Below are positions 25,586 through 58,156 of a stretch of 64,000 nt of DNA, one piece after another. A program made the position numbers and the translations under genes. The DNA lies in the NCBI GenBank assembly GCA_016192425.1, contig JACPUE010000017.1:1-64000 (forward strand), read 5' to 3'. The notes under the pieces were generated by a model. That model searched no databases. It was not told the origin of the DNA and was given only the letters and a program-made list of their open reading frames with translations. Numbering within the stretch: the first letter of the stretch is position 1; every line of letters begins with the position of its first letter. The stretch is from Burkholderiales bacterium (GTDB lineage Bacteria > Pseudomonadota > Gammaproteobacteria > Burkholderiales > Burkholderiaceae_C).

Positions 25586-25805
25586 GGGCTTGTGTTATGT
25601 ATCTCGCAGAACCTGCGGGACAAGCTGGACGGTGCGGGACATGCTGAACACTCATTCCTCCTGGAAGCAGCTTACCGCCGGGCTTGCAACCATCTCGCTG
25701 TGCAAGCACCGATGTATCAAAATCCCCTGAAACCCGGCAACCCGGCAGGCAGGTGCCGGGAACACTATAGCCTGCGAAGCAGTGGAGTTTCAGCGGCCCC
25801 ATGGG
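25586..25805. other. Intergenic region upstream of the antiporter promoter
   Basis: No convincing gene is seen. A 7-bp hairpin CCCGGCA/TGCCGGG lies at 25741-25760, without a T-run. The region separates the divergent genes at 25585 and 25896 and contains the promoter of the antiporter at its right end. Confidence 0.5.
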
Positions 25806-25811
25806 TAGAAT
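25806..25811 (+). promoter_or_regulatory. Candidate -10 box of antiporter gene
   Basis: TAGAAT lies about 8-10 nt before the first base of the structured leader (25819). A transcription start near 25818-25820 would make the leader about 77 nt long and begin exactly with its first stem. A -35 box is not clear. Confidence 0.45.
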
Positions 25812-25818
25812 CCTGGCC

Positions 25819-25895
25819 GGGTGTACGCGCCATGCGGGCGCGACAGGTTCATGCGCTGGTCGGGCCGCCACGCGGCTTACCTACGACTGGAACCC
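25819..25895 (+). promoter_or_regulatory. Structured 5' leader, candidate cation riboswitch (nhaA-I-like)
   Basis: The 77-nt leader ends directly at the start codon of the Na+/H+ antiporter gene. Seen helices: CGCGCC (25826-25831) with GGCGCG (25837-25842); GTCG (25859-25862) with CGAC (25884-25887), enclosing GCCGC (25864-25868) with GCGGC (25872-25876) over a 3-nt loop. GGTTC (25846-25850) can pair with GAACC (25890-25894) as a pseudoknot next to the start codon. GGGT (25819-25822) can also pair with ACCC (25892-25895). The two pairings compete and could form a switch. Compactness, pseudoknot and an antiporter target fit the nhaA-I/II (Li+) riboswitch classes as I recall them; class assignment is unverified. 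Confidence 0.5.
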
Positions 25896-27158
25896 ATGGA
25901 ACCCACCACCCTGCACTGGATCGCCGCTGCCCTGTTCGGCATCGCGCTGCTCCACACCTTCTCCACCAAGCAGTTCGAGCGGCTCTCACACCGCTTTCCG
26001 CGCCACGCGGGCCTGTTCCACCTGCTGGGCGAGGTGGAGGTGGTGTTCGGCTTCTGGGCCATGGTGCTCATCGTCGCCATGGCCCTGGTGGGCGACGGCG
26101 CGCAGGCGCTGCAGTACGCCGAATCGCGCAACTACACCGAGCCGCTGTTCGTCTTTGTGGTGATGGTCATCGCCGCCTCGCGGCCCGTGCTGCGCACCGT
26201 GGTGGCCCTGGTGGACACCACGGCACGCTGGATGCCCCTGCCCACCCCCATGGCCACCGCCTGGCTGGGGCTGGCTGCCGTACCGCTGCTGGGCTCGCTC
26301 ATCACCGAACCAGCCGCCATGACCATCGCCGCCCTCATGCTGGCGCCGCAGATTTTCCGCGCCGGGGTGCCCGAGCGGCTCAAGTATCTGGCGCTGGGCG
26401 TGCTGTTCGTCAACGTGTCCATCGGCGGCACGCTCACCTCGTATGCCGCGCCGCCCGTGCTCATGGTGGCAAGCACCTGGCAGTGGGACAGCGCCTTCAT
26501 GCTCGCCACCTTCGGCTGGAAGGCCGCCGTGGCCGTGTTGGTCAATGCCACCGCCTGCACGTTTGTGCTGCGCAGGCACCTGCCGCACGCCAGCGCACTG
26601 GAGGCGGGCCGTCAGGCCCAGCCCCCGGTGCCCGCCGCCGTAGCGTGCGTGCACATCCTGCTGCTGGCCGGGGTGGTGCTGTTTGCGCACCATCCGGTGG
26701 TGTTCCTCGGCCTGTTCCTGATGTTCCTGGGTTTTGCCCAGGCCTACGATCGCCACCAAAGCCCGCTGATCCTGAAGGAGGCGCTGCTTGTGGGCTTCTT
26801 CCTGGCCGGGCTGGTGGTGCTGGGCGGCATGCAGCAATGGTGGCTGCAGCCCATCGTCTCGGGCCTGGAGCCGCTGGCACTGTTTGCCGGTGCGCTGGGC
26901 CTCACGGCCATCACCGACAACGCGGCGCTGACCTACCTGGGCTCACTCATCGAAGGCATCTCGGATCCCGCCAAATACATGCTGGTGGCCGGTGCAGTGG
27001 CCGGCGGCGGCCTCACGGTGATTGCAAATGCGCCCAACCCTGCGGGCGTGGCGCTGCTCAAGCGCGGCTTCGCCGACGAAACCATTGGCGCGGGCAGCCT
27101 GCTGCTGGGCGCGCTGGGGCCCACGGCGGTGGCAGCTGCGGCCTTCCTGCTGCTCTGA
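25896..27158 (+). CDS. Putative Na+/H+ antiporter
   Basis: The 420-residue protein has about twelve hydrophobic segments. It resembles the 'putative Na+/H+ antiporter' family (PF07399). Repeated sequence features are two motif-bearing halves: [14 protein letters not shown] with [20 protein letters not shown], and [16 protein letters not shown] with [19 protein letters not shown]. Such inverted-repeat halves with broken helices are typical of ion transporters. The start ATG at 25896 follows the structured leader directly; an upstream in-frame codon at 25821 would run through that leader and is rejected. The transported ion is inferred from the family only. Confidence 0.85.
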
Positions 27159-27480: not shown

Positions 27481-27641
27481 AGTGTAGTGTTTCGCTCTAA
27501 TTGGCACTTTCAGAGCCCCGAAAAGGCTGCCCGGCTAGGCGCAGCGCGCAAGCAATGGCGGCGCCCTTGCCAAGCGCTGCAACGACGCTGGGCGGCCTTT
27601 TCGGGGCTCTGAAAGTGCCAATTAGAGCGAAACACTACACT
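27481..27641. mobile_element. MITE-like element 1 with 47-bp terminal inverted repeats
   Basis: The left arm 27481-27527 begins AGTGTAGTGTTTCGCTCTAA. It is a perfect inverted copy of 27595-27641. The two arms flank a 67-bp GC-rich core that can fold further. There is no coding capacity. The arms could form a very long hairpin in RNA. No clear target duplication is visible, because the right end is shared with the second element. It separates the kinase fragment from the island to the right. Confidence 0.75.
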
Positions 27642-27912
27642 AGGGCGTGTCATCATTCAATTCCCCCACGCGAAAGCCAGCCAAGCCGTGCAGTGCTAGG
27701 CGCCCTGAGTGCCGTGCAGCCCCGCTGCACAAGCGAAGGGCAACGACGCAATGCGCGGCCTGGCTGGCTTTCCCTTCGGGCTGGCCCCGCAATGCTGCGT
27801 CTGCTTTGTCGGGCGGCTTGCCCATGGATAACCATGGGCTGCGCCACCCTTCGCGCATCCATCCGCATTGCGGGGCCAGCGCGTGGGGGAATTGAATGAT
27901 GACACGCCCTAG
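27640..27912. mobile_element. MITE-like element 2 with nested palindromes and CTAG ends
   Basis: CTAGGGCGTGTCATCATTCA at 27640 and its inverted copy ending at 27912 form perfect terminal repeats of about 33 bp. CTAG lies at both outer ends. Two internal inverted repeats exist: GAAAGCCAGCC (27672-27682) with GGCTGGCTTTC (27762-27772), and GCTGGCCCCGCAATG (27780-27794) with its complement (27866-27880). The left CTAG overlaps the last two bases of element 1, so it probably inserted at that junction. Small open frames inside are palindrome artefacts. The CTAG ends fit a 4-bp target duplication as made by some IS5-type transposases (inference). Confidence 0.75.
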
Positions 27913-56569: not shown

Positions 56570-58003
56570 TCAATAGCGGTAAGTGTCGGGCTTGTACGGG
56601 CCCTGCTTGGGCACGCCGATGTAGGCGGCCTGCTCGTCGCTCAGCTCGGTCAGCATGGCGCCCACCTTCTTCAGGTGCAGGCGCGCCACCTTTTCGTCCA
56701 GGTGCTTGGGCAGCACGTAGACCTTGCCCACGTCGTAGCCTTCGGGGTGGGTGAACAGCTCGATCTGCGCGATGGTCTGGTTGGCGAACGAGTTGGACAT
56801 CACGAAGCTCGGGTGGCCCGTGCCGCAGCCCAGGTTCACCAGGCGGCCCTTGGCCAGCAGGATGATGCGCTTGCCGTCCGGGAAGATCACATGGTCCACC
56901 TGGGGCTTGATCTCTTCCCACTGGCAATGCGCTTCCAGCTTGGCGACCTGGATCTCGTTGTCGAAGTGGCCAATGTTGCAGACGATGGTCTGGTCCTTCA
57001 TCGCCTTCATGTGCTCGAAGGTGATGACGTCGCGGTTGCCCGTGGTGGTGACGAAGATGTCGGCCTTGTCGGCGGCGTATTCCATGGTCACGACCTTGAA
57101 GCCTTCCATGGCGGCCTGCAGGGCGTTGATGGGGTCGATCTCGGTTACCCACACCTGGGCGCTGAGGGCGCGTAGCGCCTGGGCCGAGCCCTTGCCCACG
57201 TCGCCGTAGCCCGCCACGCAGGCCACCTTGCCGGCGATCATCACATCGGTGGCGCGCTTGATGCCGTCCACCAGCGACTCGCGGCAGCCGTACAGGTTGT
57301 CGAACTTGCTCTTGGTCACCGAATCGTTCACGTTGATGGCGCGGAACAGCAACGTGCCCTTGGCCGACATTTCCTTGAGGCGGTGCACACCCGTGGTGGT
57401 CTCTTCGGTCACGCCGAGGATCTGGGCGCTCTTGCGGCTGTACCAGGTGCTGTCCTCGGCCAGCTTGGCCTTGATGGCGGCGTACAGGATGCGCTCTTCC
57501 TCGCTGCCGGGGTTGGCCAGCACGGAGGCGTCCTTTTCAGCGCGCTTGCCCAGGTGCATCAGCAGCGTGGCGTCGCCGCCGTCGTCCAGGATCATGTTCG
57601 GGCCTTCGCCCTCGCTGCCCTTGGGGCCGAAGTCGAAGATGCGGTGCGTGTAGTCCCAGTAGTCCACCAGGGTCTCGCCCTTGATGGCGAACACCGGCGT
57701 GCCCGTGGCGGCAATGGCGGCGGCGGCATGGTCCTGCGTGGAGAAGATATTGCACGAGGCCCAGCGCACATCGGCGCCCAGGGCCTTGAGCGTCTCGATC
57801 AGCACGGCCGTCTGGATGGTCATGTGCAGCGAGCCGGTGATGCGCGCGCCCTTCAGGGGCTGCTTGGCTGCGAATTCCTCGCGGATGGCCATCAGGCCGG
57901 GCATCTCGGTTTCGGCGATGCGGATTTCCTTGCGGCCCCAGTCGGCCAGGCCGATGTCGGCGATGGCAGAGTCGGCAGAGGGGGCGTTGACGCGTGCGTT
58001 CAT
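56570..58003 (-). CDS. ahcY: S-adenosylhomocysteinase
   Basis: The 477-residue protein is full length. It has [35 protein letters not shown], the NAD-binding motif [18 protein letters not shown] (about residue 262) and ends YKPDTYRY. It hydrolyses SAH to adenosine and homocysteine. The ATG at 58003 has GGAG 6 nt upstream. An SAH riboswitch lies 69 bp upstream. It is first of an ahcY-tlyA-metF operon. Confidence 0.98.
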
Positions 58004-58071
58004 GGTTTGCTCCAAAGCATGTTTGAAAAAACCACTCGCCGGGGAAAGGGAAAAAGCTCACCACGCGGAAA

Positions 58072-58148
58072 GTGGATGAGCGTCGTTGCGAAACAGATCC
58101 GAGCCTCACGCCCCGCCAGTGCTGGGGGCGCTGCAACGCTCCTCGGAT
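58072..58148 (-). promoter_or_regulatory. SAH riboswitch
   Basis: On the reverse strand ATCCGAGGAGCGTTGCAG starts the element. P1 is TCCGAG paired with CTCGGA. The conserved core GAGGAGCG-N-TGCA, then GAGGCTCGGAT, then GCAACGACGCTCATCC follows. It matches the SAH riboswitch consensus of betaproteobacteria upstream of ahcY. SAH binding should raise ahcY expression. Confidence 0.93.
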
Positions 58149-58156
58149 AGGCGCCG

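Follow-up and report, generated by a model that had tools for sequence, protein, structure and literature searches.

The 77-nt leader that precedes a putative Na+/H+ antiporter gene in the window (the whole stretch of 64,000 nucleotides analysed here, from a Burkholderiales bacterium) raises the question of whether it is an ion-sensing riboswitch, of which class, and how it might act on the gene. The leader (25819-25895, plus strand) is flanked by a -10-like box, TAGAAT (25806-25811, plus strand), and by the ATG of a 420 amino acid PF07399 protein. The preliminary description had expected an Rfam match to nhaA-I, nhaA-II or a Na+ class, and cmscan against Rfam release 15 returned nhaA-I (RF03057) at 25819-25872 on the plus strand, with 50.8 bits against a gathering score of 37 and an E-value of 2e-9 on 301 nt. 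The match spans the full model (1-55 of 55), it is the sole above-threshold RNA match in the leader, and it was the only RF03057 match in the genome scan. A permissive scan of 25700-26000 gave no match up to E 1 for nhaA-II or DUF1646, and the only other match was to a microRNA family, sub-threshold and outside the leader. The leader begins exactly where the match begins and ends at the ATG at 25896; the gene starts 23 nt past the end of the match. The leader is thus a real signal, and it belongs to an already known riboswitch class, nhaA-I or Li+-I.

The Rfam alignment places two hairpins in the aptamer (both on the plus strand): P1 at 25823-25844 (its 5' arm covers 25823-25830, its 3' arm reaches 25844 and A25825 is left unpaired) and P2 at 25853-25873, which contains GGUCGGGCCGCC (25858-25869). 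Covariation among homologous leaders, which the preliminary description had named as a check, was found: in a MAFFT alignment of 63 leaders, which as relatives are not independent, P1 and P2 together had a covariation score of 0.367 compared with 0.125 in shuffles, none of 500 shuffles reached this score, and it fell between 0.045 and 0.112 when the pairing was slid. In the same alignment the named P1 and P2 pairs were standard in 89.5% of the cells (76.0% in shuffles), and 106 cells were changed on both sides (36.1 in shuffles). Two coarser measures were less clear than the covariation score: 7 of 12 pairs had both-side changes, against 6.0 for shuffled sequence (matched or exceeded in 15 of 500 shuffles), and further pair types numbered 25 compared with 21.6 (20 of 500 as high). 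The covariation is carried mostly by P1, where five of the six pairs counted had changed on both sides among the 63 relatives; in P2 it comes from essentially one pair, which is A-U in 37, C-G in 8, U-A in 7 and unpaired in 11 of the 63 leaders. The sequence GGTCGGGC[CT]GCC was invariant, partly by construction, since the motif regex required it, and it was also present in all 80 loci taken from the RNA-model scans. The 57-nt aptamer alone had an unremarkable folding energy (z +0.89; 163 of 200 shuffles did as well), and P1 and P2 were missing from the minimum-energy structure predicted for it. The structure thus rests on the family match and the covariation, not on the energy model.

A chance or coding origin of the leader is rejected by the Rfam score, by the covariation and by the aptamer-start distances, which fall into each of the three reading frames (33, 32 and 25 of 90). 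A reading frame is nevertheless open through the window aptamer, from a GTG at 25821, and in 73 of 90 relatives it stays open over the stretch that begins 40 nt upstream of GGTC and ends at the start; we attribute this to the GC-rich DNA. Annotation could wrongly place the gene start at GTG 25821.

The gene itself (25896-27158, plus strand) matches PF07399 with an E-value of 1.5e-188 over residues 6-420 (profile positions 2-419 of 419); Na+/H+ antiporter is Pfam's label for this family, qualified there as 'putative'. The relatives of the protein are mostly from Burkholderiales among the 80 matches listed, where the nearest named one is from Simplicispira lacusdiani (90% identical); the host is presumably a Comamonadaceae species. 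RNA-model scans, which used stricter filters that can lose weak matches, found RF03057 in 4 of 26 genomes of the genus, 94 of 399 of the family, 7 of 369 of the class and 16 of 398 of the phylum, these samples overlapping. PF07399 was present in six of the 26 genus genomes. Four copies in genus genomes (L176, L177, L178 and L181) had no Rfam match; their identity to the window protein is 59-62% and, as judged by eye, they lie directly 3' of another gene's coding sequence. Since a riboswitch-bearing copy (L003/L182), with 62% identity, is no closer to the window protein than the switchless copies, protein similarity alone does not account for which copies carry the switch.

The preliminary description had taken the PF07399 target for a departure from the known class. 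This did not hold: White et al. (2022; PMC9646797) write in their text of 'NhaA proteins (pfam06965, pfam07399 and COG3004)', and a PF07399-like gene was present in 62 and absent in 18 of 80 loci from the same-genus and same-family RNA-model scans, a subset of the matches in which better-scoring ones were taken first. The motif regex applied to 160 loci gave 122 instances, 115 of them distinct; 96 of the 115 were followed by a PF07399-like gene, a figure that is biased, half of the 160 loci having been chosen by protein similarity. The motif was present in 42 of these 80 similarity-chosen loci. Twenty other ORFs, drawn from RNA-model scans including those of the class and phylum, comprised 18 PF06965 (NhaA) proteins, one PF00361/PF00662 protein and one without a match (L152), probably read in the wrong frame. 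At four loci (L068, L076, L089 and L072) the nhaA-I motif and the PF07399 gene were not adjacent, the motif lying approximately 260-1900 nt further upstream.

The window contains further elements outside the leader. An SAH riboswitch (RF01057, 64.5 bits; 58071-58150, minus strand) is located upstream of a minus-strand ORF (56570-58015) that presumably encodes S-adenosylhomocysteinase. A 273-bp repeat (27640-27912) with perfect 33-nt terminal inverted repeats is present elsewhere in the genome as four more near-full copies (95-99% identity), of which one is truncated at a contig end, and as many partial copies, several of them likewise at contig ends; it looks like a small non-autonomous transposable element. 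It is abutted by a second, palindromic repeat (27481-27641) with 55-nt arms that are 96% complementary, of which three further partial copies of approximately 130 bp (93-95% identity) occur elsewhere in the genome.

The text of White et al. establishes nhaA-I RNAs as Li+-I riboswitches that activate expression. Li+ binding or activation was demonstrated by in-line probing for the P. monteilii and R. eutropha RNAs and with a lacZ translational fusion for A. caulinodans, the most noticeable Li+ effects were in the P1-P2 linker, and the authors speculate that most nhaA-I RNAs act on the ribosome binding site. The window RNA shares with these the sequence core, P1, P2, the linker, the antiporter target and, as far as that text goes, the lack of a terminator-like site; apart from the unpaired A25825 in P1, nothing sets it apart. 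A full-length match above the gathering score, compensatory changes in P1 and P2 and a position in the leader of a cation transporter gene were all found, so that the Rfam match, the covariation and the gene association agree with the early proposal of an ion riboswitch of the nhaA-I (Li+) class before a PF07399 antiporter. According to the same text nhaA-II (Li+-II) has the same ligand and typical target gene, but the RNA is unrelated; for DUF1646 (Na+-I) the consensus model is described as similar, but, as with nhaA-II, no Rfam match appeared here in the permissive scan.

This RNA is very probably a Li+-I riboswitch that turns on translation of the PF07399 antiporter as cellular Li+ rises. 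The predicted transcript start (approximately 25818-25819) falls at the first base of the aptamer, and bases 13 to 9 before the aptamer GGGT are A/T-rich in 89 relatives (0.39-0.65 bits). A consensus scan listed no plus-strand promoter at TAGAAT, so any -35 element would be weak. No terminator-like site was found between 25819 and the ATG, and no SD-like site in the window leader (12 of 90 PF07399 leaders have one); 'ribosome binding site' therefore means here the start region. The A/T-rich -10 region, the 77-nt leader and the lack of terminator-like and SD-like sites, taken together with the text of White et al., make Li+-induced translation of a cation exporter likely. The transcript would start at or next to the aptamer. 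When Li+ is scarce, the start-codon region would fold back on aptamer bases, P2 would be broken and ribosomes would be kept off; Li+ binding would stabilise P1, the linker and P2 and free the approximately 22 nt between P2 and the AUG, allowing the exporter to be made. Family membership, P1/P2 covariation, the target gene and the lack of a terminator-like site before the ATG were observed at this locus. Li+ binding and activation would be shared by analogy with the members described in PMC9646797, and we infer control at the level of translation. As the bases of the off state, CGACU/GGUCG would be the first candidate and GAACC/GGUUC the second.

For the leader with its first codons (95 nt) the folding energy was -43.6 kcal/mol, a value equalled or bettered by 5 of 200 shuffles (z -2.40); the structure predicted for it joins the 5' GGGUG to a CACCC within the coding sequence. 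Forcing P2 to form raised the energy to -34.0 kcal/mol, in a calculation that leaves out Li+ and tertiary contacts. The energy model lends switching no support. The window P2 had a probability of 0.0000 within the leader and of 0.125 in the isolated aptamer; as it is not favoured even in the latter, its apparent breaking without Li+ may reflect a weakness of the energy model. Over 89 leaders, native downstream sequence broke P2 no more than shuffled sequence of the same single-base composition did (mean P2 probability 0.245 and 0.220, respectively, compared with 0.542 in the aptamer alone, the relatives not being independent).

Which bases near the start codon could pair with the aptamer was examined in the leaders of 90 PF07399 genes. 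An element with the consensus YGNCC (CGACT in the window, 25884-25888, plus strand) lies outside the 55-position Rfam model and is complementary to the invariant GGUCG of P2 (GGTCG at 25858-25862; columns 0-4). Its spacing is fixed: across the 90 leaders it occupies columns 26-30 after the GGTC of P2, and in P2-anchored columns these and columns 16-17 (GG) stand out against columns 18-25 (0.06-0.46 bits). The prevailing bases are C (83%), G (83%), A (46%), C (76%) and C (65%) in columns 26 to 30. At least four of the five positions pair in register in 66 of the 90 leaders, compared with 0-27 leaders at sixteen other offsets (66-90 leaders each). The exact complement of GGUCG occurred before the ATG in 24 of 90 leaders (2.6 expected, z 13.5), whereas the overlapping control 5-mers TCGGG and GGGCC had complements in two each (2.8 and 3.1 expected), the shuffles here and in the other complement tests keeping single-base composition only and the relatives not being independent. 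The contrast was smaller when the first 15 coding bases were included and one G-U was allowed: 50 (20.2 expected) for GGUCG, 25 (20.6) for TCGGG and 3 (13.7) for GGGCC. The element is also found before other genes. Among 14 with short leaders, nine pair at four or more of the five positions in the same register, compared with 0-3 at thirteen other offsets; 11 of the 14 are confirmed PF06965 (nhaA) genes (L124, L141 and L174 fall outside this confirmation), and six of the 11 have the element. None of nine long or odd leaders paired with GGUCG at this level. We regard the YGNCC element itself as real. Mutual information revealed no covarying partner for its columns beyond the neighbouring column, as expected if the partner never varies (5' columns were anchored approximately 16 nt early in some rows). 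The running text of the literature consulted gave no description of the element; we do not claim that it is unpublished.

The preliminary description had proposed two other pairings. The arms of the first, GGTTC in the P1-P2 linker (25846-25850, plus strand) and GAACC directly before the start codon (25890-25894, plus strand), both exist and are predicted to pair (p 0.81-0.83; ViennaRNA, ligand-free 95-mer), but the pairing is exact in only five of 90 relatives. It had been read as a pseudoknot, which the topology rejects: GGTTC lies 5' and GAACC 3' of P2, so that the helix encloses P2 and is nested. The second, a GGGT/ACCC switch, is nested too. Its complements were above chance, the exact complement of GGGT occurring before the ATG in 25 of 89 leaders (13.2 expected, z 3.8) and in 47 of 89 when the first 15 coding bases were included (30.7 expected, z 4.0), an excess that may reflect just the C-rich bases right before the ATG. 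In a 5-mer scan of the whole aptamer z was 3.5 at -15 (mostly GCAGG) and 3.3 at -11 (mostly GTTCA), compared with 9.9 for GGTCG. Among the nine long or odd leaders, four from a single genus (L014, L140, L145 and L152; three are confirmed nhaA, the frame of L152 being ambiguous) contain, close to the ATG, a stretch that can pair over 12-13 bp (G-U counted) with the P1 3' strand and linker (GCAGGU...); in this test of 23 leaders each of the four had p 0.005-0.03. The complementary stretches differ in sequence between the members, and this pairing is a candidate alternative off-switch.

If the RNA is a Li+-I switch, its off state could be formed in more than one way. The best candidate, put forward as a hypothesis that folding energies do not clearly support, is that YGNCC, 26-30 nt after the GGUC of P2, pairs with GGUCG when Li+ is absent and thereby blocks initiation on an SD-less mRNA. 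That this is a platform common to short Li+-I leaders, serving both PF07399 and PF06965 genes, we suggest only tentatively. The same riboswitch might use the GGUUC/GAACC helix next to the AUG, which seems somewhat doubtful. The helix has a probability of approximately 0.82 in the ligand-free fold and involves the linker, where White et al. report the most noticeable Li+ effects. Linker 5-mer complements before the ATG exceeded expectation when at most one G-U was allowed (13 of 90, 6.8 expected, z 2.5). Counting the first 15 coding bases as well gave 13 exact complements (4.7 expected) and 30 when up to one G-U was permitted (15.5 expected, z 4.2); for the linker 4-mer the figures were 12 exact (8.0 expected) and 47 when up to one G-U was permitted (27.4 expected, z 4.8). 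The 12-13 bp complements of L014, L140, L145 and L152 point the same way, these four being among the five of 23 other leaders with p <0.05 in the linker complement test. However, the exact 5-mer complement occurred in only the five leaders mentioned (1.7 expected, z 2.6), far fewer than for GGUCG; the longest-helix test on the 90 PF07399 leaders was at chance level (five with p <0.05); and in the 98% relative L007, by eye, the helix survives only if a G-U is accepted (GGACC). The linker complements thus exceed chance, yet they show much less regularity than the YGNCC element.

It is likewise rather unlikely that YGNCC belongs to the ion-bound aptamer or is a feature of the start site. Such a role would suit the nearly free middle base, the centre pair of GGUCG/YGNCC being unpaired in 43% of the 90 leaders, and the weakness of the GG-U-CG/YG-N-CC helix, whose mean predicted probability was 0.10 (0.02 with shuffled downstream sequence) and exceeded 0.5 in 9 of 89 leaders. 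It fits less well with the position of the element, which is tied to P2 and not to the ATG (the start codon floats at columns 29-47), and with its outer bases, which obey G-C/G-U rules: column 26 is C in 75, T in 13, A in 2 and G in none of the 90 leaders. Finally, the fold could be a Na+-sensing variant of nhaA-I (Na+-II type) in place of a Li+ sensor. The text of White et al. describes nhaA-I RNAs that respond to Na+ and a C54U change that widened the range of one of them to Li+, Na+ and NH4+, and the target here is by Pfam's label a putative Na+/H+ antiporter. According to that text, however, the terminator-bearing Na+-II variants are confined to Deltaproteobacteria, where they precede genes for proteins of unknown function. 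A further mark of the Na+-II variant would be C in place of U at the specificity position. No terminator-like site was found before the ATG in the window leader, its core as a whole matches the nhaA-I consensus, and the named relatives of its protein among the matches listed are mostly from Burkholderiales; we consider a Na+ sensor highly improbable.

The window RNA is therefore a further member of a known, already explained class, and a clean example of a lithium riboswitch before a PF07399 antiporter. Although the class is named after nhaA, PF07399 was the commonest target among the 80 RNA-model-scan loci examined. What may be new is limited to one detail, the YGNCC element just past the known motif. 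Should it prove to be the off-switch, the expression platform usual in the Li+-I class, on which White et al. only speculated, would become testable.
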